This document shows positions 37,621-64,000 of a DNA stretch of 64,000 nucleotides, piece after piece. The stretch spans positions 1 to 64,000 of the forward strand of contig CAKZRR010000038.1 in the NCBI GenBank assembly GCA_937146805.1, read 5' to 3'. Position 1 is the stretch's first letter; each line of letters opens with the position of its first letter. Origin of the DNA: an uncultured Owenweeksia sp. (lineage in GTDB: Bacteria; Bacteroidota; Bacteroidia; Flavobacteriales; Schleiferiaceae). The position numbers and the translations under genes were made by a program. Under the pieces are notes generated by a model, which was not told the origin of the DNA, searched no databases, and worked only from the letters and a program-made list of their open reading frames with translations.

Positions 37621-37628
37621 CAAAAATA
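37621..37628 (-). promoter_or_regulatory. -7 element of the Crp/Fnr regulator gene
   Basis: The minus strand reads TATTTTTG, a full match, with initiation near 37616 and a leader of about 22 nt. It abuts, sharing one base with, the operator at 37628-37641. Confidence 0.55.
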
Positions 37629-37671
37629 TGATTTTTATCATAGTAATCGCTGCCAAAGCCCGTAATATTTG
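37628..37671 (+). promoter_or_regulatory. Fnr-type operator and promoter of ccoI
   Basis: Perfect palindrome ATGATTTTTATCAT (37628-37641), extendable by T/A on each side. AATATTTG (37664-37671, five of six consensus bases) begins 36 bp after the operator start. The operator centre is then about -41.5 from the predicted start at 37676, the class II activator position. Confidence 0.6.
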
Positions 37672-37675
37672 CAAG

Positions 37676-40126: not shown

Positions 40127-40294
40127 ATGTCTGCTATTTATCTGCTCATCGGGGTCAGTTTTATTGTTGCCCTCGCCTTTCTCATCGCCTTTATATGGAG
40201 CATTAAAAATGGCCAATACGAAGACGACTATTCACCCGGAATTAGAATGTTAAAAGACTCCAAAAAAAATAGCCAAACAAATACCAAAGTATGA
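40127..40294 (+). CDS. ccoS: cbb3 oxidase maturation protein CcoS
   Basis: A 55-aa protein with one membrane helix (MSAIYLLIGVSFIVALAFLIAFIW), then 'SIKNGQYEDDYSPGIRML', the CcoS family hallmark in which the helix is followed by G-Q-Y/F-D-D. It is needed for cofactor insertion into cbb3 oxidase. A longer frame starts at 40070 but inside the operator and before the promoter, so the ATG at 40127 is taken. Its stop overlaps the ccoNO start by 4 bp. Confidence 0.88.
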   Translation: MSAIYLLIGVSFIVALAFLIAFIWSIKNGQYEDDYSPGIRMLKDSKKNSQTNTKV

Positions 40295-42411
40295 ATACCG
40301 AAACTTTTTATTACGACAATCGTTGGGCAAAAAACTTTTTAATTGCCACCATGGTTTGGGGGCTTATCGCGCTACTGATTGGGCTTACAGCTGCTCTGCA
40401 ACTGGTTTTCCCGGAGCTAAATGCCAATACCTCTTGGCTTACCTTTGGTAGATTACGTGCACTCCACACCAACGGAGCCATTTTTGCTTTTGTGGGTAAC
40501 TCCATTTTTGCAGGGGTATATTATTCGCTGCAAAGGCTTTTAAAAACACGTATAGCCAGTGATGCCTTAAGTAAGTTTCACTTTTGGGGCTGGCAGCTCA
40601 TCATCCTTTCGGCTGTAATTACCTTACCCATGGGGTTAACTTCATCAAAGGAATATGCCGAGTTGGAATGGCCTATTGATATTGCCATTGCTATAGTTTG
40701 GGTGGCCTTTGGGGTAAATATGTTTTGGACCATTTTAAAAAGAAGAGAGCGCCACTTATATGTAGCTATCTGGTTTTTCATTGCCACTTTTGTTACAGTT
40801 GCACTACTGCACATTGTAAATAACCTAGCCATACCGGTTTCTTTTACTAAATCTTACCCCGTGTTTGCGGGAGTGCAAGATGCCTTGGTGCAATGGTGGT
40901 ACGGGCACAATGCCGTGGCCTTTTTCTTAACCACACCTGTACTGGGTTTAATGTATTACTTCGTGCCTAAGGCCGCCAATAGACCCGTGTATTCCTATCG
41001 CTTATCTATTGTCCATTTTTGGGCGCTTATCTTTTTATACATCTGGGCGGGTCCGCACCATTTACTCTACACCGCCCTACCCGAGTGGGCGCAAAGTTTA
41101 GGTACCGTATTTTCCATTATGCTCATTTTCCCTAGTTGGGGAGGTATGCTAAACGGTTTACTTACCCTACGTGGTGCTTGGGATAAAGTACGCGAAAGTG
41201 CGGTGCTTAAGTTTTTTGTTGTAGCCATTACTTGTTACGGAATGGCCACTTTAGAAGGCCCCTTACTCAGTTTAAAGAGTATTAACGCCATTGCGCATTA
41301 CACGGATTGGATTCCGGCACACGTACACATTGGTACATTGGGTTGGAATGGCTTTATGATTTTTGGAATGATATACTGGCTATTACCACGTATGTACAAC
41401 ACCAGTTTATTTTCGCAAAAGATGGCCAACACTCACTTTTGGATTGGCACCGTTGGTATCATTTTTTGGGCTTTACCCATGTATGTAGCCGGCTTTACCC
41501 AAAGCCTTATGTGGAAAGAGTTTAATCCTGATGGCACCTTAGTATATGCCAATTTCTTAGAGACTGTTACCCAAATTGTTCCTATGTACGCACTCCGTGC
41601 CGTAGGCGGTAGCCTTTACATTATTGGAATGTTGGTAATGGGTGTAAATGTTTTTAGAACCATAAAAAGCGGCAACTTTATTAAAGAAGAAGAAGACAGT
41701 GCCATGCCACTTACCAAAGTATTTAAAAAGGCTAAGGGCGAGTACTGGCACCGTTGGATTGAAAGACGCCCAGTACAGCTAATGGTTTGGAGTTTAGTAG
41801 TAGTACTGTTGGGGGGTATTTTAGAAATTGTACCTACTTTAATGGTTAAAAGCAACATCCCTACCATAGCCAGTGTAAAACCCTATACGGTATTAGAGTT
41901 GGAAGGGCGTGACATCTACATAAGAGAAGGTTGTAATGCTTGCCACAGTCAAATGGTGCGCCCCTTTAGATCGGAAACAGCGCGGTATGGCGAATACTCC
42001 AAAGCAGGAGAATTTGTGTACGACCATCCTTTTTTATGGGGTAGTAAACGTACCGGTCCAGACCTACACCGTGTTGGTGGAAAGTACTCCCACAGCTGGC
42101 ATTACAACCACATGCTCGACCCTCAAAGTATGAGCCCTGGCTCAATTATGCCGCGTTACCCATGGCTGTTTGGTAACCCACTAAATACTATTCATAGCCA
42201 AGAAAAATTAAATGTAATGGTGAAACTAGGCGTACCCTACTCTCAAGATTACATTGATAATTGGGAACATTATATGGATTTACAAGCCCAAGCCATTACC
42301 GATGATTTACGCGAACAAATTGAGGAGGTAGATGTAGAGAAGAGCGATGAAATTGTAGCCTTAATAGCCTACCTACAGCGCTTGGGAATTGATATAAAAG
42401 CTGAAAACTAA
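40291..42411 (+). CDS. ccoN: Fused cbb3-type cytochrome c oxidase subunits I and II (CcoN-CcoO)
   Basis: The 706-aa fusion joins the 12-helix catalytic subunit (about residues 1-470) to the membrane-anchored mono-heme cytochrome CcoO (about 490-706). CcoN landmarks are 'RLRALHTNGAIFAFVGN', 'QWWYGHNAVAFFLTTP', 'WAGPHHLLYTALPEW' and 'DWIPAHVHIGTLGWNG'. The CcoO heme site is C548-x-x-C551-H552 (EGCNACHSQMVRPF), with 'MSPGSIMPRYPWL' carrying a likely Met ligand. Such fusions are typical of Bacteroidota. The oxidase reduces O2 at low oxygen tension. Second gene of the cco operon. Confidence 0.95.
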   Translation: MNTETFYYDNRWAKNFLIATMVWGLIALLIGLTAALQLVFPELNANTSWLTFGRLRALHTNGAIFAFVGNSIFAGVYYSLQRLLKTRIASDALSKFHFWGWQLIILSAVITLPMGLTSSKEYAELEWPIDIAIAIVWVAFGVNMFWTILKRRERHLYVAIWFFIATFVTVALLHIVNNLAIPVSFTKSYPVFAGVQDALVQWWYGHNAVAFFLTTPVLGLMYYFVPKAANRPVYSYRLSIVHFWALIFLYIWAGPHHLLYTALPEWAQSLGTVFSIMLIFPSWGGMLNGLLTLRGAWDKVRESAVLKFFVVAITCYGMATLEGPLLSLKSINAIAHYTDWIPAHVHIGTLGWNGFMIFGMIYWLLPRMYNTSLFSQKMANTHFWIGTVGIIFWALPMYVAGFTQSLMWKEFNPDGTLVYANFLETVTQIVPMYALRAVGGSLYIIGMLVMGVNVFRTIKSGNFIKEEEDSAMPLTKVFKKAKGEYWHRWIERRPVQLMVWSLVVVLLGGILEIVPTLMVKSNIPTIASVKPYTVLELEGRDIYIREGCNACHSQMVRPFRSETARYGEYSKAGEFVYDHPFLWGSKRTGPDLHRVGGKYSHSWHYNHMLDPQSMSPGSIMPRYPWLFGNPLNTIHSQEKLNVMVKLGVPYSQDYIDNWEHYMDLQAQAITDDLREQIEEVDVEKSDEIVALIAYLQRLGIDIKAEN

Positions 42412-43508: not shown

Positions 43509-44939
43509 ATGGGCGTCCATATTAGTAATCCTAACTTTAGAGACACCATAGGTACTATTGATGCCGATGGAAAACGAAACTATTTACACCCGCGTAAAAC
43601 CAATGGCCGCTACACCAACTACAGGCGTTTAACTAGTTATGCGCTGTTGCTCGTTCTAGTTGGCATCCCCTTTATTCAAGTAAATGGACGGCCCTTTATG
43701 CTGTTCAATATTATTGAGCGCAAATTCATCCTCTTTGGTCAAACCTTTTGGCCAGCCGATTTCTTTTTAGCCGTGCTAGCCATGCTTATCTTGGTGCTAT
43801 TTGTAGCCGCCTTTACGGTAGCCTTTGGTAGATTATTTTGCGGTTGGGTATGCCCGCAAACTATTTTTATGGAGCATGTTTTTAGGCGTATCGAATATTG
43901 GATTGATGGCGATAGAAATCAACAAATACGCCTATCTAAAATGAAGTGGACGGCCGAAAAAATTCGCAAGCGCGTATTTAAAAACGGCATTTTTTACTTG
44001 ATTAGTTTTGGTATTTCCAATGTGTTTATGATGTACCTAGTGGGGCAACCGCAATGGTGGAAAATAGTAAGCGACAATCCTTTAAATCATATCTCGGGTC
44101 TGGTTACCATTCTCATTTTTAGTGGAGTGTTTTTCTTTGTTTTTGCTTGGTTTAGAGAGCAGGTTTGCATTATGGTTTGCCCCTATGGGCGATTACAAAG
44201 TGTGCTGCTAGATAGGCACTCGGTGGTAATTGCTTACGACTATATACGTGGCGAAATACGAAGCAAATTCCGCAAAAGCGAAAACCGAAAAGAAGAAGGA
44301 AAAGGCGATTGCATAGATTGCAACCAATGCGTAGAAGTTTGCCCTACTGGTATTGATATTAGAAATGGCACCCAGCTAGAGTGTATTAATTGTACCGCTT
44401 GTATGGATGCCTGCGACAATGTAATGGACAAAATAGATCTGCCGAAAGGCTTGATTAGATACGATAGTGAGGAAAATATTGCCACCTACAAAAAGAAAAT
44501 TTTTACCGCCCGCGTTTGGGGTTATTCGGCTGTAATGATTGTTTTATTAACGCTATTTACCTTTTTATTGGCCAGTCGCACCAATGTAGAAGCGCTGGTA
44601 TTTAGAGTGCCCGGACAACTTTACCAAAAGGTAGATGAGCAAACCTTAAGCAACCTTTTCAACTACAAAATACTAAATAAAAGTACCGATGCTATGGCTG
44701 TTGAGATAGTGCTTTTAGAACCCAAAGGCGAACTAATGATGGTAGGCAGTAATACCCTAAACCTTAAGGAAGGAGACTTTGCCGAAGGCACCCTAATTGT
44801 ATACCTTAAGCGAGCCGATTTAAGCAAGCAAACTACCAAACTAAAACTGGGTATATTACAAAACAATGAAGTAATAGAAACGGTACAAACTTCGTTTAGC
44901 GGCCCCATTGTTAGAAAAACTAAAAGACAAAAGCCATGA
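43509..44939 (+). CDS. ccoG: Cytochrome c oxidase accessory protein CcoG
   Basis: The 476-aa membrane iron-sulfur protein is implicated in copper reduction/handling for cbb3 assembly. It has about five helices, a cytoplasmic ferredoxin-like part with two [4Fe-4S] motifs ('CIDCNQCVEVCPTG' and 'CINCTACMDACD'), an extra 'CGWVCPQTIF' near residue 115 and 'CIMVCPYGRLQSV'. The C-terminal 130 residues are an Ig-like FixG domain. It starts 17 bp after ccoP and overlaps ccoH by 4 bp. Confidence 0.93.
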   Translation: MGVHISNPNFRDTIGTIDADGKRNYLHPRKTNGRYTNYRRLTSYALLLVLVGIPFIQVNGRPFMLFNIIERKFILFGQTFWPADFFLAVLAMLILVLFVAAFTVAFGRLFCGWVCPQTIFMEHVFRRIEYWIDGDRNQQIRLSKMKWTAEKIRKRVFKNGIFYLISFGISNVFMMYLVGQPQWWKIVSDNPLNHISGLVTILIFSGVFFFVFAWFREQVCIMVCPYGRLQSVLLDRHSVVIAYDYIRGEIRSKFRKSENRKEEGKGDCIDCNQCVEVCPTGIDIRNGTQLECINCTACMDACDNVMDKIDLPKGLIRYDSEENIATYKKKIFTARVWGYSAVMIVLLTLFTFLLASRTNVEALVFRVPGQLYQKVDEQTLSNLFNYKILNKSTDAMAVEIVLLEPKGELMMVGSNTLNLKEGDFAEGTLIVYLKRADLSKQTTKLKLGILQNNEVIETVQTSFSGPIVRKTKRQKP

Positions 44940-47510: not shown

Positions 47511-49472
47511 ATGAAAATCTCAAAAATCATTTTGGCCTGTGTTCCACTAATGTGGATAGGCGCCTGTAACAGCGGAAACCCCGAAAGCACTCCCAGCGGA
47601 GGTGCCATGGCTAAAAACAATGCAGCCGAAAAAGTATATGTAGCCCCTGGCGAACACGATGAGTTTTACTCCTTTATGTCCGGTGGCTTTAGCGGCCAAG
47701 TAAGCGTTTATGGTTTGCCTTCTGGCAGATTGCTAAAAGTAATACCGGTATTTTCATTAGATGGCGAAAAGGGATATGGCTTTAACGAAGAAACCAAACC
47801 CATGCTTCAAACCAGTTTTGGCTTTGTGCCTTGGGATGATGCCCACCACCCCGAGCTTTCACAAACAGACGGTGTGCCAGACGGACGTTACCTTTTTATT
47901 AATGGTAACAATACACCCCGTATTGCGCGTATTGACCTTAGCACTTTTGAAACCGCAGAAATAATAGAAATACCCAATTCTGGTGGTAACCACAGCTCAC
48001 CCTTTACCACCGAAAACTCAGAGTATGTAGTGGCTGGTACTCGTTTTAGTGTGCCTATTCCACAAAAAAATGTGGCCATAAGTAGTTACAAGGAAGAGTT
48101 TAAAGGTGCCTTATCTTTTATTTCGGTAGATCCCGAAGAGGGACACATGGAAGTTGACTTCCAAGTACTGCTACCTGGTTTTGACTATGATTTGGCGCAT
48201 GCCGGAAAAGGAAAATCACATGGTTGGATGTTTTTTACCAGCTACAATAGTGAAGAAAGCCACACCTTAAAAGAGGTAAATGCTAGCCAAAATGACAAGG
48301 ATTACATAGCAGCCATAAACTGGAAAAAAGCGCAAGAGTACTTAGCGCAAGGAAAAGCCATTGATATGCCAGCCGAGTACTTAATAAATCGCTACAACGA
48401 AAAAAAGCATATGGCCGAAACCGAAAAGAGAACCAGTGTAAAGGTATTACTGCCTCAAGATTGCCCAGGTCTAATTTACTATTTGCCTACACCAAAATCT
48501 CCGCATGGGGTTGATGTAGATCCTACCGGTTCGTACATTGTAGGTAACGGAAAGCTCAACGCTAACCTTACCATTCATAGTTTTGATAAGATGATTACTG
48601 CAATCGAAAATGAATCATTTGCAGGTGATATTGCAGGCATACCCGTATTGAACTTTGAAGACGTAGTAGCCGGAACCGTAGAAAGCGGAGGATTAGGGCC
48701 ATTGCACACCGAGTTTGATGGCGAAGGAAATGCTTATACCACCTTCTTTATATCTAGCGAGGTAGTAAAATGGAAATTAGATACTTGGGAAGTGTTAGAC
48801 CGTATTCCAACCTACTACTCAGTTGGTCACTTAATGATACCTGGTGGAGATTCTAAAAAACCATGGGGTAAGTATATGGTAGCTCTTAATAAGATTACTA
48901 AAGATCGCTACCTACCTACAGGCCCTGAGCTGGCGCACTCCGCACAGTTGTATGATATTAGTGGAGATAAAATGGAGCTCTTGCTTGATTTCCCTACCAT
49001 TGGAGAACCACATTATGCACAAGCCATACCAGCCGAATTGGTAAAACCAAATTCGAAAAAGATTTACAAACTGGATGAAAATGAGCACCCCTACTTTACC
49101 AAAAGTGAAAGTGATGCAAGGGTAGAGCGTGAGGGCAACGAAGTGCATATATACATGACCTCTATACGCAGCCATTTCTCTCCTGATAATATAGAAGGAA
49201 TTAGCGTGGGTGACCAAGTATATTTTCACCTCACCAACTTAGAGCAAGATTGGGATGTACCTCACGGCTTAAGTGTAATGGGTGCTCAAAATGCCGAGCT
49301 ACTGGTAATGCCTGGTCAAACCGAAACCCTACTATGGGAACCGGTTAAAGCTGGTGTATTTCCGTTTTACTGCACTGATTTTTGCTCGGCTCTGCACCAA
49401 GAAATGCAGGGTTACATCCGCGTTTCTCCAAAAGGTGAACAACTACCTCTCAGTTTTTCTACGGGAGAATAA
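47511..49472 (+). CDS. nosZ: Nitrous-oxide reductase, clade II, with lipoprotein-type Sec signal
   Basis: The 653-aa copper enzyme reduces N2O to N2. All seven CuZ histidines are visible: H112-H113 (DAHHPE) and those in GNHSSPF, SPHGVDV, GPLHTEF, SVGHLMI and GEPHYAQA. CuA ligands are H585 (DVPHGLS), C621, C625, H629 and M632 (CTDFCSALHQEM). The N-terminus has no twin-arginine motif. Instead it has 'LACVPLMWIGAC', a lipobox-like Sec signal, as expected for clade II, which suggests membrane tethering. A hairpin (49507-49534) follows. Confidence 0.97.
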   Translation: MKISKIILACVPLMWIGACNSGNPESTPSGGAMAKNNAAEKVYVAPGEHDEFYSFMSGGFSGQVSVYGLPSGRLLKVIPVFSLDGEKGYGFNEETKPMLQTSFGFVPWDDAHHPELSQTDGVPDGRYLFINGNNTPRIARIDLSTFETAEIIEIPNSGGNHSSPFTTENSEYVVAGTRFSVPIPQKNVAISSYKEEFKGALSFISVDPEEGHMEVDFQVLLPGFDYDLAHAGKGKSHGWMFFTSYNSEESHTLKEVNASQNDKDYIAAINWKKAQEYLAQGKAIDMPAEYLINRYNEKKHMAETEKRTSVKVLLPQDCPGLIYYLPTPKSPHGVDVDPTGSYIVGNGKLNANLTIHSFDKMITAIENESFAGDIAGIPVLNFEDVVAGTVESGGLGPLHTEFDGEGNAYTTFFISSEVVKWKLDTWEVLDRIPTYYSVGHLMIPGGDSKKPWGKYMVALNKITKDRYLPTGPELAHSAQLYDISGDKMELLLDFPTIGEPHYAQAIPAELVKPNSKKIYKLDENEHPYFTKSESDARVEREGNEVHIYMTSIRSHFSPDNIEGISVGDQVYFHLTNLEQDWDVPHGLSVMGAQNAELLVMPGQTETLLWEPVKAGVFPFYCTDFCSALHQEMQGYIRVSPKGEQLPLSFSTGE

Positions 49473-54699: not shown

Positions 54700-55428
54700 A
54701 TGAGTACCATACTTGATAAAACGCTTGGCCAATTGGTGGTGGAAGATTACCGCAGAGCGGATATCTTAAAATCACATAATCTTGATTTTTGCTGCGGAGG
54801 AAAACAAACTTTAGAGCAGGCTTGTGCTGAAAAACAGCTTTTTGTAGATGATATAATCGCCCAGTTAGAGCAAATACCTGCCAGCAGCAAGGCTTCCGAA
54901 AATATAGACACCTGGCCAGCCGATTTGCTATGCGATTATATTGAAAAAAAACATCACCGCTATGTTGAAAATAGCATTCCTATCATTAAATCGTACCTCG
55001 AAAAAGTGTGGGCTGCTCATGGCACCCAAAACCCTTCGTTGGCTACAGTAAAAAGTATTTTCTTTGCCACAGCTGATGAACTTACGTTACACCTCAAAAA
55101 AGAAGAACTGGTACTATTTCCATACATCCGAAAACTTACCAGCCACCAAATAAGTGGCACTAAGGATATAAACCCACCCAGTTTTAATTCGGTGCAAAAC
55201 CCTATACAAACCATGTTAGATGAGCACGAACAGGCAGGAGCCAACTTGCGCGAAATTGCAGCCATTACCAACAATTACCAGCCACCAGCATCTGCCTGTA
55301 ACACGTACCGCGTACTATTGGCCAAACTACAAGAGTTTGAAAATGATTTACACCGCCACGTACATTTAGAAAACAATGTGCTCTTTGAAAAAGCCATACA
55401 AATGGAACAATCTATTCTTGCCACCTAA
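54700..55428 (+). CDS. ric: Iron-sulfur cluster repair di-iron protein (ScdA/Ric/YtfE)
   Basis: The 242-aa protein has the N-terminal DUF542 segment with 'LDFCCGGKQTLEQAC' and a C-terminal hemerythrin-like four-helix bundle. The di-iron ligands are in 'EKKHHRYVENSIP', 'LHLKKEELVLFPYI', 'MLDEHEQAGANL' and 'LHRHVHLENNVLF'. It repairs Fe-S clusters damaged by NO or oxidants. It is followed 8 bp later by an Rrf2-family regulator, likely in one operon. Confidence 0.92.
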   Translation: MSTILDKTLGQLVVEDYRRADILKSHNLDFCCGGKQTLEQACAEKQLFVDDIIAQLEQIPASSKASENIDTWPADLLCDYIEKKHHRYVENSIPIIKSYLEKVWAAHGTQNPSLATVKSIFFATADELTLHLKKEELVLFPYIRKLTSHQISGTKDINPPSFNSVQNPIQTMLDEHEQAGANLREIAAITNNYQPPASACNTYRVLLAKLQEFENDLHRHVHLENNVLFEKAIQMEQSILAT

Positions 55429-55436
55429 CTTTACTT

Positions 55437-55883
55437 ATGTTATTATCAAAAGCCTGCGAATACGGCCTTAAAGCCTGTATATTTTTGGCAAGTGCCAAGC
55501 CATCTATAAAAACAAGCGCCTTAGAAATAAGCGAGGTAATGGATGCGCCAAGCCCTTTTACGGCCAAAATTTTAAAACAACTTAGCAAGGCAGGGATAAT
55601 ATCTAGTAACAAAGGCCCTAAGGGCGGTTTTTACCTTACAAACGAGCAACAAAAACAAAACCTGTACACAGTACTGGTTGCTATAGATGGCGATCAACTG
55701 TTTACAGGTTGTGCGCTCGGCTTATCCACTTGCTCATCGCAGTTTCCGTGCCCCGTACACAAGGAATACGCCTTAATACGAGACCGACTCACAAAATTAA
55801 TGAAGTACAATACCCTAGATAAAATGGCAGATAGCTACCAAAATGGTGAAGCCTTTTTAAAATCTTTAGAGATTAGCGTGTAG
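55437..55883 (+). CDS. Rrf2-family regulator with three cluster-type cysteines
   Basis: The 148-aa protein has an N-terminal winged helix ('LLSKACEYGLKACIFLA ... SPFTAKILKQLSKAGIISSNKGPKGGFYL') and the Fe-S loop C92-x6-C99-x5-C105 ('GCALGLSTCSSQFPCPVH') with His108 near. This fits NsrR/IscR-like sensors that lose repression when NO or redox stress alters the cluster. It lies directly behind scdA, which it probably controls. Confidence 0.88.
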   Translation: MLLSKACEYGLKACIFLASAKPSIKTSALEISEVMDAPSPFTAKILKQLSKAGIISSNKGPKGGFYLTNEQQKQNLYTVLVAIDGDQLFTGCALGLSTCSSQFPCPVHKEYALIRDRLTKLMKYNTLDKMADSYQNGEAFLKSLEISV

Positions 55884-55889
55884 CCTGTG

Positions 55890-55897
55890 TACCTTTG
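55890..55897 (+). promoter_or_regulatory. -7 element four bases before the hemJ start
   Basis: TACCTTTG-TGCC-ATG. The full TAnnTTTG match predicts initiation at or next to the ATG at 55902, giving a leaderless transcript. No clear -33 TTG is seen. Confidence 0.45.
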
Positions 55898-55901
55898 TGC
55901 C

Positions 55902-56444
55902 ATGAGCAGTTTTTACCTCTTTTTTAAGGCGCTACATATTATTGGTTTTGTAAGTTGGTTTGCTGGGCTCTTTTACCTTGTTCGCCTGTTTGTGTACCAC
56001 CGCGAGGCGTGGGAGTTAAAAAACGAAACTGGCACAACTTTACGCGCTCAATATCAAATTATGGAAAGCCGTTTGTATACTATTATACAAACTCCAGCTA
56101 TGGTGCTCACCTTAGTGGGAGGTATTGGCATGTTGGTGATTAACCCTAGCTGGTTGCAACAAAGTTGGATGCACCTAAAACTGGCTTTAGTGGTTGCGCT
56201 CATTTTATATCACTTTTCTTGCGGCAAGCAAATTAAAAAGTTAGCAAGACAAGCTGGTGGTATAAGCAGCTTTGGCTACCGCTTGTATAACGAGCTACCC
56301 ACACTATTGCTTATTGCCATAGTGATGCTGGCCGTTTGGAAAAGTTTAGAAGGCCTCTACCTAGGTTTGGCTCTGTTGTTAGCTTTAGGCCTTCTATTTT
56401 TTGTTGTTGCCAAGGTATATAAGCGGCAACGCACTAAAAAATAA
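55902..56444 (+). CDS. hemJ: HemJ/CopD-family membrane protein (protoporphyrinogen oxidase type)
   Basis: This 180-aa four-helix membrane protein begins 'FYLFFKALHIIGFVSWFAGLFYLVRLFVYH', with the conserved His of HemJ in helix 1. It also has 'MESRLYTIIQTPAMVLTLVGGIGML', 'WMHLKLALVVALILYHFSCGKQ' and 'YNELPTLLLIAIVMLAVWK', which match HemJ. HemJ oxidises protoporphyrinogen IX in heme synthesis. The ATG at 55902 is preferred to a GTG at 55887 that lies upstream of the promoter element's end. It supplies heme near a cytochrome-rich locus. Confidence 0.82.
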   Translation: MSSFYLFFKALHIIGFVSWFAGLFYLVRLFVYHREAWELKNETGTTLRAQYQIMESRLYTIIQTPAMVLTLVGGIGMLVINPSWLQQSWMHLKLALVVALILYHFSCGKQIKKLARQAGGISSFGYRLYNELPTLLLIAIVMLAVWKSLEGLYLGLALLLALGLLFFVVAKVYKRQRTKK

Positions 56445-57988: not shown

Positions 57989-58933
57989 CTACATATCTGG
58001 CATCGCTTTTTTGCGTGCTTCTAAATAATAGCCAAGGCCAAAACCGAAATTACTTTTACTTTCCGGTTGGCTTTCAGATAAAGTTTGCTGCACCGGAACC
58101 TGACCAAATACATTTAATACCCACTTTGAAAAGTAAAAATCAAGACCCGCACTAACATTTAAAACATGCCCTCCGGTATGCGCCTTAGTAATACCGTATT
58201 GCACATCATTTGAATAATAATCCCAACGTAATCCTAAGCTTGGTAACCAAAGTGTATTTTTTACTTTTTTGCTGTAAAAAAAGCTGGTAGCAACAGTTGT
58301 TTGCTCCCCAAAGCGATATTGCAATTCATTCTCACCATTATACAAAAACTGGACATGAGAGCTTACACCCCAATTTTGCCTCTTTAAAACGTGCCGAGCA
58401 AAGGCCTGATAAGAAAAAGCACCCTTACCTATTTGAAAGGCCGCTGGTAATTTTAGTTCATACCTATCTCTCTGTTGATATTTACCCGTAGGCAAACCCA
58501 ACTCTGCTCCAATAAAAAGAAGTTGCCTATTGCTTTTATTTAAACTATCGGTTTGGTTTAAGATGGCATAATTTACCTGCGCTCGCACATCTCCTATGCC
58601 GTCAATGGTAGAAACCCCATCCATATCAAAACGCTGATGTCTTGCAAAAGGCAATGTTAATTTAGCTTGCCATTTCGGTTTCATTTGCCATTGTGTCCAA
58701 ACTTCCGTGCGATAGAAATGATCAGATTTTACTCTATTTTGCTGGCTAAAATTAAGGTCAGTATTGGGGTGACTAAACTGACTAAATTGAAAGCGGGCGT
58801 TAAACATCGTTTTACCATAATTGGGATCAATGCCCAAATAAGTACTCCCTGTGCCGCAGCCACATACATCACACGCCAGTAAACTGTTTATTGATACTGA
58901 AAGTGCCACAAAAGCGGTAACTAAAAATTTCAT
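57989..58933 (-). CDS. Outer-membrane beta-barrel with N-terminal CDVCGCG motif
   Basis: The 314-aa protein has a signal sequence (MKFLVTAFVALSVSINSLLA) and a mature N-terminus of CDVCGCG. The rest alternates amphipathic strands ('MFNARFQFSQF', 'WQAKLTLPFARH', 'LLFIGAELGLPTGKY', 'LNVFGQVPVQQ', 'NFGFGLGYYLEA'), resembling transporter-type barrels. The cysteine cluster may bind a soft metal, or the first Cys may be lipidated. Last gene of the minus-strand operon with MbnP- and MbnH-like genes, 20 bp after the di-heme enzyme. A role in copper transfer across the outer membrane is inferred from context. Confidence 0.72.
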   Translation of the reverse strand: MKFLVTAFVALSVSINSLLACDVCGCGTGSTYLGIDPNYGKTMFNARFQFSQFSHPNTDLNFSQQNRVKSDHFYRTEVWTQWQMKPKWQAKLTLPFARHQRFDMDGVSTIDGIGDVRAQVNYAILNQTDSLNKSNRQLLFIGAELGLPTGKYQQRDRYELKLPAAFQIGKGAFSYQAFARHVLKRQNWGVSSHVQFLYNGENELQYRFGEQTTVATSFFYSKKVKNTLWLPSLGLRWDYYSNDVQYGITKAHTGGHVLNVSAGLDFYFSKWVLNVFGQVPVQQTLSESQPESKSNFGFGLGYYLEARKKAMPDM

Positions 58934-58953
58934 GTTTTTATCTTTAAAAACCT

Positions 58954-59991
58954 CTAATCAGGTTTTGAAAATTTACTGTTATTCAAATACGTATAATCTG
59001 ACAGTGTTAACAAAAAAGCCACTATAGCTTCCTTATCACTTTCACTCAAATTCATTTCTAAATTCAACTCATTACTAAGGGTGGACGATTTCTTTACACC
59101 CGAATTATAATGATTAACCACCTCCAACAAAGTACTAAATCGTCCATCGTGCATATAAGGTGCACTTTGGGCAATATTGCGTAAGCTGGGTACTTTAAAC
59201 AAACCTTCATCCTTTGCCAAAAGCGTTATGGTAGCTCTCCCTTTATCACTAAACACGGTATCCAAACCATTATTTTTAAACGAAAAATTTGTTTGCAATA
59301 CCCCTTGATGGCAGCTCGTACAAAATGTGTCAAACAACTTTTTACCTACTTCCTCTTCTAGGGTATAATGTGCCTTGCCATTTACATATCGGTCGTATTT
59401 GCTATTATCCGAAATCATGAGCCCCATAAATTGTGCTAAGGCAAAAAGTAATTGCTGGTCGGTAATTTGCGGCTGGTTAAAAGCTGCCTTAAACAAACTG
59501 GTGTACTGCTTACTGGCCTTTAGCTTTTGAACCACGTTGCTAAGCGATTCGTCCATTTCTAATGGATTCGTAATCGGTGCCACAGGCATTACTTCTATGT
59601 GATTAATACCACCATCCCACATAAAGTTTGGATTCCAAGCCAAGTTGGCCATAGCAGGTGAATGCCTAGTACCCAGCTGCCCATCTACCCCTTGACTAAA
59701 AGCTTTACCTTCATCAGCAAAATTGGCTTGTTGCTGATGGCAGCTAGCGCAAGAAATTTGCCCTGTGCGAGACAGCAAAGGATCGTAAAACAATTTGCGC
59801 CCTAGCTCAAAACCAGCCTGTGAAGGCGGGTTATTGTCAAATGAGTAGTGTTCCTTTGGAAAATGACTTGGAGGTGTAAATCCTTCAAAAAAGTGCTCAA
59901 TAGGTTGGCTATTTTCACATGAAGTTAGTAACAAAAGGCATCCCAATAAAAATAATTGAATGCCCTTTGCTACTTGCCTAAAAGCAGACAT
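58954..59991 (-). CDS. Di-heme cytochrome c peroxidase family enzyme (MauG/MbnH-like), lipoprotein
   Basis: The 345-aa periplasmic lipoprotein (lipobox 'LLTSC', Cys25) has two heme sites, C81-x-x-C84-H85 (SCASCHQQQANF) and C224-x-x-C227-H228 (FCTSCHQGVL). It also has the family's 'LGTRHSPAMANLAWNPNFMWDGG' (written here in part) and 'VPSLRNIAQSAPYMHDGRF'. It could be a peroxidase, but the MbnP gene 6 bp upstream points to an MbnH-type enzyme that oxidises a tryptophan of its MbnP partner. Confidence 0.88.
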   Translation of the reverse strand: MSAFRQVAKGIQLFLLGCLLLLTSCENSQPIEHFFEGFTPPSHFPKEHYSFDNNPPSQAGFELGRKLFYDPLLSRTGQISCASCHQQQANFADEGKAFSQGVDGQLGTRHSPAMANLAWNPNFMWDGGINHIEVMPVAPITNPLEMDESLSNVVQKLKASKQYTSLFKAAFNQPQITDQQLLFALAQFMGLMISDNSKYDRYVNGKAHYTLEEEVGKKLFDTFCTSCHQGVLQTNFSFKNNGLDTVFSDKGRATITLLAKDEGLFKVPSLRNIAQSAPYMHDGRFSTLLEVVNHYNSGVKKSSTLSNELNLEMNLSESDKEAIVAFLLTLSDYTYLNNSKFSKPD

Positions 59992-59997
59992 AATACC

Positions 59998-60765
59998 TTA
60001 GTTATGTACGTGGTCTAGCTCAAAGCCTCCGCCAAAATTATGGGCAATATGCTGTGCCATTTCACTAGGCATTTTTATGTCATTTTGATCGGCCACCAAA
60101 AATGGATGCATGCCATCAAAAACGTTTTTCATGTTTACCATTATGTGCACTCTGGGGTTAGCACCCGAAACAATGTTTAATTTTTCGGTATGCATATGGT
60201 GACCTTTTTCAACCTGAGCCCTATTAGGGCCGGCAAATCCACCTAAATGGTACTCAAATTTACCATTGGCTGAGCTCGTAGAAGTTCCTTCTAACTTTAC
60301 AAAAATGTAACCACTATTCCAGCTCCAAAACATATTATTAGAAGGACTTAAAGCACCTGCTTGCGCACCAGATACATTCTTAGCACTGTCTACACCAATG
60401 GTGTAACTAATATGATGGTACTCACCAAAAGGCACTTTGTCAATTTCTAAGATTAAACTACCGGCATCGTTAGCATCTACAATATAATAGCTATCGTCAT
60501 CCACAAAATCCGGCCCCGCACTGTTCATCATCTTTATATTAGAGATGTAATACTTTACCATGTTGTAGTTTACATCTTCGGCTCCATCAGTAGTGTAAGT
60601 ACTGCCCAAGTTAAAGGCCGTTCCTTCAAAATGATGTTCAAACTCGATAGAAAATTTGCCCGTGGTTGGATTGTTATTTACTGGTTTCTCATCCTCATCG
60701 CATGCGGTAAACATTACAAAAAAGGACATAAGTAGGGTGTACAAAAATATTTTTCTGTTTTTCAT
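59998..60765 (-). CDS. MbnP-family lipoprotein, probable copper-binding
   Basis: The 255-aa lipoprotein (lipobox 'FVMFTAC', Cys22) has the MbnP-like fold. Landmarks are 'KYYISNIKMM', 'VPFGEYHHISYTIGVD', 'NMFWSWNSGYIFVKLEG' (W147, W149), 'FEYHLGG' and the His cluster 'KGHHMHTEKLN' (H189, H190, H192). In characterised MbnP proteins a tryptophan is converted to kynurenine by the di-heme partner MbnH and helps bind copper. The corresponding partner gene follows 6 bp later. Mature N-terminus is acidic. Confidence in family is good; copper binding is inferred. Confidence 0.82.
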   Translation of the reverse strand: MKNRKIFLYTLLMSFFVMFTACDEDEKPVNNNPTTGKFSIEFEHHFEGTAFNLGSTYTTDGAEDVNYNMVKYYISNIKMMNSAGPDFVDDDSYYIVDANDAGSLILEIDKVPFGEYHHISYTIGVDSAKNVSGAQAGALSPSNNMFWSWNSGYIFVKLEGTSTSSANGKFEYHLGGFAGPNRAQVEKGHHMHTEKLNIVSGANPRVHIMVNMKNVFDGMHPFLVADQNDIKMPSEMAQHIAHNFGGGFELDHVHN

Positions 60766-60873
60766 TTTTCTGAATATTAGTGTTTAGGCCATACTTTGGC
60801 TTAAACGATTTAAATTATAGTAATAGGTGCCCAAAAGATTGGCTTAAGGCACGGAAGCTTGGAAAATGAAAAC

Positions 60874-61254
60874 CTAGCAGGGCGGGTGAAAAACGGAAGA
60901 AAGGAATGGACGCTGTAAAGCATCCTTAAAATCAAAATTTAAAACTTGATCGCGAAAGGCATTTGGTAAGTTTAGGCCATCAAAGTGGTTACACAATAAA
61001 AAAGTTGATAGTTCAAGCTGAAGAATTTCGGAATTTCGCAAAGGAGCCTCCTCTTTTTGCTCTTCCACCAAGTTGAGTTTTTTCATTAATACGCAACTTC
61101 CCTCGCAGTGCATTTCAGGTTTATCTTTATTTTCACATTGGGTAGCCGCAATTTCTTGCTGATTGAAAACAAAACTAGTTGTAACCCATACCTTCATGCC
61201 CCAAGGAAGGGCCAAAATGAAACAAAGTATGGTACTAATTACAACTCTAAACAT
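60874..61254 (-). CDS. Small secreted Cys protein, first gene of the MbnP operon
   Basis: The 126-aa protein has an N-terminal helix (MFRVVISTILCFILALPW) that may be a signal or anchor. A Cys motif follows, C40-x9-C50-x3-C54 ('CENKDKPEMHCEGSCVLMKKL'; written without the full context). The C-terminus ends in the tripeptide Pro-Pro-Cys (C126). I recall similar 'C-x-G-x-C-x-L-x-K' small proteins next to copper/TonB genes in Bacteroidota but cannot name a family. Soft-metal binding is inferred. The start follows a TATATTTG element (minus, 61269-61262) by only a few bases. Confidence 0.65.
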   Translation of the reverse strand: MFRVVISTILCFILALPWGMKVWVTTSFVFNQQEIAATQCENKDKPEMHCEGSCVLMKKLNLVEEQKEEAPLRNSEILQLELSTFLLCNHFDGLNLPNAFRDQVLNFDFKDALQRPFLSSVFHPPC

Positions 61255-61261
61255 AATACTA

Positions 61262-61269
61262 CAAATATA
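61262..61269 (-). promoter_or_regulatory. -7 element of the MbnP copper operon
   Basis: The minus strand reads TATATTTG, a full match. Initiation near 61257 leaves a leader of about 3 nt. Confidence 0.5.
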
Positions 61270-61398: not shown

Positions 61399-61401
61399 GC
61401 G

Positions 61402-61475
61402 TGGGCCCAGCTGGGCTCGAACCAGCGACCAAATGATTATGAGTCATCTACTCTAACCAACTGAGCTATGGGCCC
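61402..61475 (-). tRNA. tRNA-Met (anticodon CAT)
   Basis: A 74-nt cloverleaf on the minus strand. The acceptor GGGCCCA pairs with TGGGCCC, discriminator A. The anticodon loop CTCATAA has CAT (61441-61439), and the T-arm contains GGTTCGAGCC. A fully paired first position argues against the initiator. Elongator Met is most likely; a lysidine-modified tRNA-Ile cannot be excluded. CCA is not encoded. Confidence 0.92.
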
Positions 61476-61579: not shown

Positions 61580-64000
61580 CTAGTTAATAGAAATTCTACG
61601 AGTAGCACTAATTCCATCACCTTTAAGGTGTACCATATAAATACCTTTAGATACATGGCTAATATTTACACTTTGTGATTGACCAGGCTGGCAATTTTCT
61701 CTAGTGAAAACTACTCTTCCCGACACGTCACTAATTTGTAGCGTATAATTAGCAGTTGCATTGTTTAAAGTAACATTAAACACGCCTTCTGACGGGTTTG
61801 GATACAACTCCAATGAAGCATCAAAAGATTGCTCAACTACACTAATACCACCTACCGTAATTGTTATAGTAGTATCATCTGTATTGCCACATTTGTCAGT
61901 TACCGTAAGCATTACGTTATAGGTACCATTACTTGTATAAGTACCTGATGGCATTGATCCAACACCAGTTGCACCATTTCCAAAGTCCCAAGCATAACTA
62001 ATACCATCACCTGTAGAGTTGGTAGCATCAAAGTCTACCGTAGCATCTATCAAGGTAGTGTTATTTTGGGCACTGTTAAAAGTAGCCCAAACAGGTGCTA
62101 ACGAATCTGTTTTGAAAGATATTGGTCCTGTGGTACTGTAGCCAATAGTATTGCAGCTATCGCTCACATAAACTTCATAATTTGTATTTAACATTAAACC
62201 TGCTATAACAACCGGGGAACTGACTCCAGAAACAACTGTACCCGCACCCTGGGTAAACCCTACAGGTCCGTATTCAATATAAGAAGCGGCAATAACTGTA
62301 TCACTGCTCCATGTAATTGTAGCTGAGTCACAATTAAGCGAACTCACCAAAACATTTGATGGTGCCATGCAACTAGTCAATTCTTTTATTGAAACATTAT
62401 CTACCGCCCAGTACCAAGCGTATACGCCATTGTCATTATAGTGAAAGCGTACTTGTAAGTTTGCATTAGCGTACATTGTAATATCTAATGAATCCTGTTG
62501 CGGAGCCAACCAGCCTCCAACATCCGATCCTATCTTCATAACATTTACCCATGAAGTGCCATCATAAACATCAACAAAACCGCTATCAGTGCTTAAATTA
62601 TTAAAGTAGTGGTCAAATTCTAAGATCAACGGCCCTGTAATACTCGAGGCATCAATCTGAACCGAAGTCATAACCTCATCCAGTGTTGCTCCTGATCCAG
62701 CACCATCGCTATCAACAAATGCGAATGGTGTTCCGTTTAAGGTATTTGTATTATAAGAAGTAGTTTGATGCCATGTGTCTGGCGTTGTTCCTCCAATTTG
62801 GGCGTTAAAGCAGCCAAGAGAAGCAGTAAAATCTTCAAAATATGGTAATCCTTGTGGTAAGCATAAAGTTGAAAAACAAACCGGTCCCAAAGTATCAGTA
62901 AAACCATTTGCACACTCTTCAACCACGTATACACAATAACTAGTAGAATTTGTTAATCCGCTTAGTATCAAAGTATCGTTAATTGAATTAACAACTGTGC
63001 CTGCAGCTGCAGGTTGACCAGGAGCAGTTATAAATACTTCCCCATTTATAAAACCGCTAGTCCCTTCTGTCCAATAAACCCTAGCACTATCCGTTTTTAT
63101 TTGATTAACCATAAGAGCTGTAGGATTAGCACAAGCCCTTGGTGTACGCACTTCAAAATTATCGATAAACAAGTCGTTGTCTTCTATGTCATCAATTCTT
63201 GATCCCGCATACAAGCCAAACTTAACATAACCCGAAATACCCGTTAACGGAATAATATGATGTTCACCAACTGCATCTACGGTGTCGCTATTATCAGCAT
63301 ACCATAAAATATTGTTCTCATCCCAAGTTAAACCATTATCCAATGAAATAACCACAGCCAATGTATCATCAGAACCTAAATAACCTTGGTTTGTACTGGC
63401 ATAGGCCGTAATGGCCGCATCAAACTCAACTTGTAAATTGGTGATGGTAGGATCTAAATAAATAGAAGGTGTAATTAACCAGTCCGTATAATCCGCTACG
63501 AATACATTAATTCTTTGCGCTCTTCCATTTGGAGAAGCCACATTGTTTCCAAAGTCATCATTCAACCAAGAAGAACTTCCAAGCGAAGTTAAAACTGCAT
63601 TAGCTCCTAACCTTCCTTCGGCTTCTTGCCATGCCTCCGGCACACCCGTTAATGCAAAATCATTTAGGTAATTTGTGGTAAAGGCAGTATAGAAAGCAAA
63701 TGGTCCTGACCAAACACTTACATCTCCAGCTCCACAGCTATCACGTACATAAAACTCATACTCTGTACCTGCCATTAAGCTAGATATGGTAACGGTATCA
63801 TTAGTAGTATTTAGCATGGTTCCGCCTCCTTTGGTAAAGCCTGCTGTACCATATTCTACATTATAATTATTAGCAAACCCTCCATCTGTCCAAAATACAT
63901 CGGTGCTATTTATAGTAAAATTTAAAGCGCCTAAGGCCGTAGGTGGTGGGCAAGATGGCAGTGTACAAAAAGTAAATGGACCGTCCCATTGACCTGTGCC
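61580..64000 (-). CDS. Large secreted FN3/PKD/T9SS protein, 5' end outside the window
   Basis: The frame stays open to the right edge, so the start lies beyond 64000; the Met at 63817 is internal (preceding residues read 'VEYGTAGFTKGGT', as in the other FN3 repeats). Order on the visible part: fibronectin type III repeat, a jelly-roll/MAM-like 'choice-of-anchor' domain ('DWLITPSIYLDPTITNLQVEF'), FN3, a second jelly-roll domain ('LPYFEDFTASLGCF'), FN3, a PKD domain ('YAWDFGNGATG'), then T9SS type A sorting ('LYPNPSEGVFNVTL ... SKGIYMVHLKG'). It looks like a surface adhesin or large scaffold; no catalytic domain is visible. Confidence 0.88.
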   Translation of the reverse strand, partial: GTGQWDGPFTFCTLPSCPPPTALGALNFTINSTDVFWTDGGFANNYNVEYGTAGFTKGGGTMLNTTNDTVTISSLMAGTEYEFYVRDSCGAGDVSVWSGPFAFYTAFTTNYLNDFALTGVPEAWQEAEGRLGANAVLTSLGSSSWLNDDFGNNVASPNGRAQRINVFVADYTDWLITPSIYLDPTITNLQVEFDAAITAYASTNQGYLGSDDTLAVVISLDNGLTWDENNILWYADNSDTVDAVGEHHIIPLTGISGYVKFGLYAGSRIDDIEDNDLFIDNFEVRTPRACANPTALMVNQIKTDSARVYWTEGTSGFINGEVFITAPGQPAAAGTVVNSINDTLILSGLTNSTSYCVYVVEECANGFTDTLGPVCFSTLCLPQGLPYFEDFTASLGCFNAQIGGTTPDTWHQTTSYNTNTLNGTPFAFVDSDGAGSGATLDEVMTSVQIDASSITGPLILEFDHYFNNLSTDSGFVDVYDGTSWVNVMKIGSDVGGWLAPQQDSLDITMYANANLQVRFHYNDNGVYAWYWAVDNVSIKELTSCMAPSNVLVSSLNCDSATITWSSDTVIAASYIEYGPVGFTQGAGTVVSGVSSPVVIAGLMLNTNYEVYVSDSCNTIGYSTTGPISFKTDSLAPVWATFNSAQNNTTLIDATVDFDATNSTGDGISYAWDFGNGATGVGSMPSGTYTSNGTYNVMLTVTDKCGNTDDTTITITVGGISVVEQSFDASLELYPNPSEGVFNVTLNNATANYTLQISDVSGRVVFTRENCQPGQSQSVNISHVSKGIYMVHLKGDGISATRRISIN

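Follow-up and report, generated by a model that had tools for sequence, protein, structure and literature searches.

What brings together the four adjacent minus-strand genes at positions 57989-61254 of contig CAKZRR010000038.1 from an uncultured Owenweeksia sp., and what does the small first gene do? We analysed a 64,000-nucleotide stretch of this contig (the window), which forms part of contig C38 of a 3.16-Mb assembly with a completeness of 98.86%. The genes encode a small cysteine-bearing protein (cysP), an MbnP-family lipoprotein (mbnP), an MbnH-type di-heme enzyme (mbnH) and an outer-membrane barrel with a cysteine-rich N-terminus, and are collectively called the cassette. All four open reading frames (ORFs) were confirmed (Table 1), as were the identities given to the last three in the initial annotation, which had read the locus as a copper-uptake or storage module serving cbb3 oxidase and NosZ. 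That observation holds, and the interpretation is partly supported. With moderate confidence, we propose that the genes form a copper-acquisition operon of Bacteroidota controlled by its own first gene, in which cysP would act as a leader, MbnP would be modified by MbnH and the barrel would provide the route.

The cassette is a real, widespread unit whose four genes belong together. In a profile survey of 198 genomes of the class, MbnP was found in 141 genomes (and in none of 14 control genomes), MbnH-type enzymes (E<=1e-60) in 155, barrel matches in 115 and cysP in 105; phylum-wide, 121 of 296 genomes have a match to the cysP profile, which is for the most part weaker outside the class. Barrels and cysP lie close together. 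At E<=1e-80, 46 of the 49 barrel places have cysP within 6 kb, and 30 have a listed MbnP (the list holds the best 150 MbnP places of the class survey). At E<=1e-40, 51 of 57 barrel places are near cysP, and the chance of encountering a single site at such a distance in a 3.5-Mb genome is about 0.3%. Around 59 barrels, the window included, cysP is present in 52 loci, MbnP in 38, MbnH in 32 and a lipoprotein family (DUF4625 in the single member scanned) in 15. Beyond the four cassette families and this lipoprotein, no family occurs in more than 6 of the 59 loci, and no TonB receptor recurs beside the barrel. The DUF4625-type lipoprotein adjoins the barrel at L065:7392-7847 and at 14 other loci, including MbnP-less ones, and may be an alternative binding lipoprotein.

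Co-occurrence of the four families across Bacteroidota had been named beforehand as a check. Among the best 80 of 572 MbnP loci, cysP occurs in 64, MbnH in 67 and the barrel in 58; all four families are found in 45. This rate applies to loci drawn with an alignment in which cassette MbnPs predominated, and does not extend to MbnPs in general. The exact order of the window is seen in 35. These loci partly overlap the class-survey genomes (e.g., L213 and L083 have the same gene coordinates), and the closest MbnP among them, with 46% identity, belongs to an Owenweeksia metagenome-assembled genome. Two main gene orders are observed, cysP-mbnP-mbnH-barrel and cysP-barrel-mbnP-mbnH. Pairs of cysP and barrel without a detected MbnP are found in L065, L077-L080 and L082. 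In L269, a record labelled Glaciecola amylolytica, which we take to be a gammaproteobacterial name, cysP-mbnP-mbnH are present through transfer, mislabelling or contamination.

Of the regions inspected, L064-L123 (60) were selected via barrel matches (58) or as top MbnP matches (2), L124-L155 (32 of 42) since cysP had no listed partner, and L184-L211 because MbnH was absent from their genomes or only weakly matched. Genes were called as longest ORFs, identical sequences were counted once for cysP and for MbnP, and association statistics ignore kinship between genomes.

No Pfam or NCBIfam family was found for cysP. The window protein carries a CEGSC motif and ends with Pro-Pro, one further residue and the stop codon. 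The Cys motif is present in all 154 unique cysP sequences, which were found by a profile containing that motif, and its three cysteines are invariant. Pro-Pro occurs within the last 12 residues in 150 of the 154, against 15 of 1090 unrelated genes of the same loci, and is followed by two to four residues in 127. The distance from Cys to Pro-Pro is nearly fixed (66.2 +/- 3.2 residues), and the intervening linker is poorly conserved, the majority residue being common to 24% of sequences on average versus 63% in the Cys motif.

The position of cysP is equally regular. A same-strand gene lies downstream in 149 of 154 cases, and only nine have a further cassette gene directly upstream. Between cysP and the cassette or receptor gene that follows, the median gap is 98 bp (n=125), compared with 4 bp for other cassette gaps (n=200; p 1.4e-32); in the window, cysP and mbnP are separated by 108 bp, mbnP and mbnH by 6 bp, and mbnH and the barrel gene by 20 bp. 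The sequence TAnnTTTG, which we take to be the consensus of the Bacteroidota -7 promoter box, ends at most 15 bp from the start of 91 of 154 cysP, 0 of 147 mbnP, 1 of 126 mbnH, 1 of 126 barrel and 43 of 1005 other genes, with cysP starts re-chosen by their distance to the first Cys. Under a single generous start rule, the corresponding counts are 96/154, 4/144, 4/123 and 2/120, with 51/385 for other likely first genes.

Two known leaders are of comparable design; papers are cited here by PMC number and from excerpts. CruR and CutF are both small and exported, carry a Cys motif as well as a Pro motif at the C-terminus, and act in cis while being translated (PMC9426467, PMC9973294). CutF of Rhodobacter contains CxxxC, has Pro-Pro near its C-terminus and heads a same-strand copper operon with an intergenic stem-loop (PMC9973294); unlike in the CutF operon, no multicopper oxidase recurs downstream of cysP. 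CruR (DUF2946) of Bordetella, which features a Cys motif, Pro-Pro and a long gap, opens an operon that copper represses and that includes a TonB receptor, and cruR operons can contain MbnPH-like and TIGR01778 genes (PMC9426467). In a copper TonB transporter family, cruR stands in front in more than 40% of operons (PMC12914433). The published CutF-like rules (at most 150 residues, CxxxC, Pro-Pro within 15 residues of the C-terminus, a same-strand downstream gene within 1000 nt) describe the window cysP, with its 126 residues, CEGSC, near-terminal Pro-Pro and mbnP 108 bp downstream, and CutF-like proteins have already been counted in Bacteroidota (PMC9973294). The rules also ask for a cleavable Sec signal peptide, for which the hydrophobic N-terminus of cysP is a candidate. 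Bacteroidota leaders with Pro just before the stop are also on record upstream of sec genes (PMC10987492).

Because CxxxC is present, Pro-Pro lies near the stop codon, the spacing is nearly fixed at about 66 residues, a promoter box abuts the start and a gap of about 100 bp follows, cysP is probably a CutF/CruR-like copper-sensing leader ORF rather than a chaperone. By analogy with CutF and CruR, the leader architecture demonstrated here would come with stalling and copper binding. For an uptake operon, copper would be expected to turn expression off, as with CruR, rather than on, as with CutF. The initial annotation had included the small protein in the module itself; a structural role in uptake is not supported for it, and its design looks like that of a leader or sensor ORF.

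Some devices by which the gap might act were tried and set aside. Terminator-like hairpins occur in 11 of 122 gaps against a shuffle mean of 3.7; intrinsic-terminator attenuation was therefore rejected as a general rule and is a minority device at most. A Rho-type C>G bubble showed a modest excess only (0.062 versus 0.000 and 0.013). Elsewhere in the same genome, a second MbnP-MbnH operon (L002, C17) begins with HYC_CC_PP, another small protein with Cys and Pro-Pro (57.8 versus 28 bits). A further HYC_CC_PP protein of this genome (L293, C9) precedes an HMA-like ORF and a TonB-receptor-like ORF, both recognised by eye.

We consider it rather unlikely that cysP is instead a periplasmic copper chaperone or membrane-anchored shuttle, carrying Cu(I) between the barrel or TonB receptor and inner-membrane acceptors, with Pro-Pro and leading position being incidental. 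The hydrophobic N-terminal segment and invariant cysteines would suit such a protein, as would the usual proximity of cysP to a Cys-bearing barrel or to a TonB receptor (an N-terminal Cys cluster is present in 7 of these 23 receptors). However, a chaperone would account neither for the terminal Pro-Pro, the near-fixed spacing and the poorly conserved linker, nor for the rarity of cassette genes directly upstream, the long gap behind cysP in otherwise packed operons, and the promoter box next to its start codon.

The copper role of the cassette is suggested by association, through its families and through the other contexts of cysP. Of 131 cysP places, 89 are near a barrel or a listed MbnP. Among the 32 inspected of the 42 others, three had cassette partners and 29 were barrel-less (one, L128, with MbnP). 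In 23 of these 29 loci, a TonB-dependent receptor is encoded next or next-but-one downstream, so that these parallel cysP operons carry a TonB-copper-type receptor instead of the barrel. Fifteen of the 23 receptors match the TonB-copper model TIGR01778 at 1e-5 or better; the best match, 1.6e-64, has the lowest E among the 25 families listed. A lipoprotein, YtkA-type in the single member scanned, lies between cysP and the receptor in 9 of the 29 loci. In L142 (G101:C23), where cysP is followed by a lipoprotein and a receptor, NosZ is less than 1 kb away. Since just 7 of the 23 receptors have a Cys cluster, we gave up the notion that a Cys-rich outer-membrane N-terminus is the constant counterpart of cysP.

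MbnP scores 173.5 bits against PF20243 (gathering cut-off 27, E 6e-51). Its AlphaFold2 (AF2) model, with a predicted local distance difference test (pLDDT) score of 90.9, superposes on Methylosinus MbnP 7l6g with Z 17.7 and a root-mean-square deviation (rmsd) of 2.9 over 203 aligned residues; the next entry has Z 5.1. In a profile alignment, Met145, W147, W149 and His173 (the Trp numbering being that of the initial annotation) fall on the Met, WxW and His of 7l6g, and they are conserved in 33, 40, 39 and 40 of 41 MbnPs, mostly cassette-chosen. MbnH reportedly converts the first Trp of WxW to kynurenine, and His and Met are said to be the copper ligands. The Met and His aligned to Methylosinus MbnP are presumably copper ligands here as well, and by analogy with the methanotroph protein the same Trp oxidation may take place.

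The mbnH product scores 183.3 bits against CCP_MauG (PF03150; cut-off 25.6, E 5.5e-54), and its closest solved relative is 6e1c, a 'Di-heme enzyme' (E 4.2e-38), which we take to be Methylosinus MbnH. Both CXXCH motifs are present in 33 of 33 sequences, and residue 295 is Tyr in 31 and Phe in two. Tyr295 aligns with Tyr of 6e1c and with Met of the cytochrome c peroxidase (CCP) 3hq9; we assume that this is the site of the Met heme ligand of CCPs, and that Tyr marks the MauG/MbnH type. The pair resembles the known MbnP/MbnH pair in its adjacent genes, in the MbnP fold with WxW, a Met two residues before it and a downstream His, and in an MbnH with two CXXCH motifs and Tyr where CCP has Met. It differs in its recurrent cysP and CDxCGC barrel partners and in its genome, in which, at 98.86% completeness, MbnB (PF05114) was not found. 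A methanobactin link was rejected on this ground, in keeping with the lack of methanobactin genes noted from the window alone. MbnP/MbnH pairs occurring well beyond methanobactin producers have been in print since 2013 (PMC3621798). CorA/CorB and MopE also share the kynurenine-from-Trp copper site, CorB being a di-heme cytochrome c peroxidase partner (PMC3912023, PMC3621798). CorA and MopE differ in having His/His and kynurenine ligands, where Met/His and kynurenine are expected here, and their sequences are said to bear no marked similarity to that of MbnP (PMC3621798). Neither CorA nor MopE was among the 50 matches listed by either MbnP fold search, which has no bearing on their relation.

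Variation in MbnP tends to follow the presence of the enzyme. The 99 MbnP sequences comprise 70 with WxW, 13 with a single-Trp MxWP motif, 11 with MWFG and five others, and MbnH is found at most 3.5 kb away in 53, 13, 1 and 1 of these, respectively (WxW versus MWFG, Fisher p=3.9e-5, with kinship ignored and a biased choice of loci). Where a WxW MbnP has no MbnH next to it (17 cases), the genome encodes an MbnH-type enzyme at another site in 16 (E<1e-100). MbnH is missing at 1e-60 from six of the 141 MbnP-bearing genomes, two of these assemblies being only 56% and 65% complete, and WxW is present in one of their seven MbnPs. Together with the motif counts, this indicates from sequence comparison that loss of MbnH and loss of its Trp target tend to go together; the cysP-barrel cassette appears to persist with an unmodifiable MbnP. 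The MWFG form without WxW is found in cysP and/or barrel loci without MbnH in L120, L157, L159, L162, L163, L207 and L209. The single-Trp MxWP..GG form (L137, L186, L187, L189-L195, L202-L204) adjoins an MbnH-type enzyme in 13 of 13 cases, the enzyme being more distantly related in most. A third MbnP of the genome of the window (L003:1408-2163) retains the first Trp, lacks the second and has no adjacent MbnH.

For the barrel protein, Pfam gives nothing at E<=1 and NCBIfam nothing meaningful. According to its model (pLDDT 86.3), it adopts a COG4313/FapF-like 12-strand fold. The model fits the COG4313 channel Pput2725 (4rl8) with Z 26.4 and rmsd 2.3 over 247 aligned residues, FapF (5o65) with Z 24.4, and autotransporter barrels with Z 22.2 and less. 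By sequence, FapF entries are the only solved relatives found by the barrel profile (best E 7e-6). Compared with Pput2725 and FapF, to which it is 12-13% identical, the barrel has an N-terminal Cys motif and another gene context. If the signal peptide is taken, by eye, to end just before C21, Cys is found at the first, fourth and sixth mature positions in 42, 43 and 31 of 43 strong barrels, and in 30 of the 43 the barrel proper is free of Cys. Weaker barrels exhibit N-terminal variants such as CDLCS, CDICGN and CCSGG. In the COG4313 structure, about 14 N-terminal residues fold into the lumen and occlude it (PMC4493636), and the CDxCGC segment may, by analogy, act in the lumen as a copper-binding thiol gate or plug.

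That the cassette serves surface copper protection or storage, MbnP sequestering Cu(I) and the barrel exporting or anchoring material, seems to us unlikely. CorA, which lies at the surface, has a copper site of the kynurenine type (PMC3912023), and FapF, a structural relative of the barrel, is part of an amyloid secretion machine (PMC5557850), both of which are compatible with this role. On the other hand, CorA (PMC3912023) and the cruR-bfrG operon (PMC9426467) are lowered by copper, as acquisition predicts, TonB-copper-like receptors are among the other partners of cysP, and, DUF4625-type lipoprotein aside, the barrel loci have no further recurrent family. It is improbable that the barrel is a FapF-like export channel taking MbnP or a fragment of it to the surface, and itself no copper route: FapF is the only solved relative found by sequence, and one of the two common orders has the barrel gene behind mbnP-mbnH, but the COG4313 fit is as good or better, cysP-barrel pairs exist without detected MbnP, and secretion leaves the conserved N-terminal cysteines unexplained.

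In the copper-acquisition operon that we propose, transcription would begin at or next to the cysP ATG, and the nascent protein would be targeted to the membrane, CxxxC emerging about 66 residues ahead of the C-terminal Pro-Pro. Copper on the Cys motif would alter translation at Pro-Pro, which, via the gap of about 100 nt, would decide the synthesis of the remaining operon. MbnH would oxidise W147 of the MbnP lipoprotein to kynurenine, forming a Cu(I) site with Met145 and His173. The COG4313/FapF-like barrel would constitute the outer-membrane route, with its thiol N-terminus in the lumen as a putative copper-binding gate; gate and substrate are suggested by the likeness to COG4313.

Several observations weigh against this proposal. 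Four of the 154 cysP proteins lack Pro-Pro in the last 12 residues, and 86 have a same-strand non-cassette gene upstream (median distance 93 bp), so that cysP is not established as first in the operon in those 86. The folding signal of the gap is moderate (mean z -1.87 versus shuffles, 122 gaps), and conserved gap sequence, looked for against the nearest relative, was little seen (44 of 136 columns). Membership of cysP in DUF2946 or HYC_CC_PP was rejected on profile scores: 49 cysP sequences matched 19 families at E<=1, PF11162 (DUF2946, CruR) not among them, and HYC_CC_PP (NF047658) is matched by one of the 49, at E 0.036, below the cut-off. Unlike in CruR, the Pro motif of cysP is mostly FHPP, not RAPP, and its Cys-to-Pro-Pro distance is about 66 rather than 45 residues; moreover, the Pro motif of CutF is described as causing no strong stall on its own (PMC9973294). 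MbnP falls under the cut-off of TIGR04052 MbnP_like_WxW (55.3 versus 140 bits), as does the mbnH product under that of TIGR04039 'MbnH family' (218.8 versus 362.85 bits, E 9.7e-65). The TonB-hemin model matches 23 of 23 cysP-associated receptors and a siderophore model 19, and one receptor with full scores is below the TonB-copper cut-off (181 versus 472 bits). The Cys segment of the barrel is modelled with pLDDT <50 (residues 14-23 and 25-31), and COG4313 channels are associated with hydrophobic substrates (PMC4493636). Lastly, the class survey places 38 of its best 150 MbnPs near a barrel, 43 near cysP and 44 near either; most MbnPs therefore reside outside the cassette.

The window also contains two copper-enzyme clusters, a cbb3 cluster and a nos cluster, both confirmed (Table 1), and the initial annotation had the cassette supply their enzymes. 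The copper part of this claim is backed by the TonB-copper-like operons headed by cysP; dedication to cbb3 oxidase and NosZ, in contrast, has little probability. NosZ, found in 70 of the 198 genomes, is not associated in them with cysP (43/105; p 0.10), strong barrels (22/57; p 0.62) or the cysP-barrel pair (23/72; p 0.54), and dependence of the cassette on NosZ is not supported at the genome level. Proximity does recur: six of 56 cysP-NosZ pairs lie at most 15 kb apart, compared with 0.45 expected, in six of the 43 genomes with both genes, and in L075 the cassette is adjoined by homologues of the nosL, nosD, ABC and ScdA genes of the window, with NosZ on the same contig. Yet receptor-type cysP loci account for three of the six near pairs (L131, L142, L151), two of them from one genus, and the cassette is not tied to NosZ.

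Table 1. Features of the cassette and of the neighbouring copper-enzyme clusters in the window.
Feature	Position	Strand	Description
Candidate promoter box of cysP	61262..61269	-	TATATTTG, matches TAnnTTTG; 3' end 7 bp before ATG
cysP	60874..61254	-	126 aa small Cys protein; hydrophobic N-terminus, C40-x9-C50-x-G-x-C54, HPPC-stop end
cysP-mbnP gap	60766..60873	-	108 bp; two predicted hairpins, about 60852-60827 and 60806-60782; folding z -1.89
mbnP	59998..60765	-	255 aa; lipoprotein-like (C22, by eye); Met145, W147/W149, His173
mbnP WxW codons	W147 60327-60325, W149 60321-60319	-	
mbnH	58954..59991	-	345 aa; di-heme CCP/MauG superfamily; CXXCH at 81-85 and 224-228; Tyr295
Barrel gene	57989..58933	-	314 aa; predicted 12-strand outer-membrane barrel; CDVCGCG at residues 21-27 (C21, C24, C26)
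cbb3 cluster	37628-40036; 40291-42411; 43509-44939		P-type ATPase; COX1+FixO fusion; FixG-type
nos cluster	47511-49472 (NosZ)		NosZ, plus NosL, NosD

Other neighbours include a tRNA-Met gene (61401-61475, minus strand) directly upstream of the cassette promoter and, at 61580-64000 on the same strand, a gene extending past the window edge for a protein with fn3, PKD and type IX sorting-tail domains. Between the nos cluster and the cassette (54700-56444, plus strand), a ScdA/hemerythrin protein, an Rrf2 regulator and a UPF0093/CopD-like membrane protein are encoded; a ScdA-type gene is also found near cysP in L075, L077 and L127.

The cassette is assembled from known kinds of genes, the first of which is reinterpreted here. 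Neither the four-gene cassette nor a Cys-plugged COG4313 copper channel was found in our searches of open-licence PMC papers. More broadly and more tentatively, the cassette could be one form of a widespread Bacteroidota copper-uptake circuit whose sensor is nascent cysP, and which would drive, as interchangeable uptake devices, either a TonB-copper receptor or a TonB-independent, thiol-gated COG4313 channel fed by a kynurenine-copper lipoprotein, with a side branch without WxW and MbnH that would use unmodified MbnP. In this circuit, since about 66 residues correspond approximately to one ribosome tunnel plus one translocon, the Cys motif would enter the periplasm as the ribosome meets Pro-Pro, and copper outside the inner membrane would be read during cysP translation. 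Copper passage across the Gram-negative outer membrane is poorly known, especially in Bacteroidota, and the cassette, if correctly interpreted, would offer a candidate route that is defined, recurrent and independent of TonB, together with an outer-membrane copper gate of a new kind. A co-translational copper sensor would become testable in Bacteroidota, where one survey, as excerpted, saw no copper-related leaders of the RAPP/RGPP type (PMC12992588). Kynurenine-copper proteins would then sit in a common operon outside methanotrophs, and the natural variants among the 99 MbnPs compared, with and without MbnH, would make it possible to test why a protein Trp is oxidised for copper.

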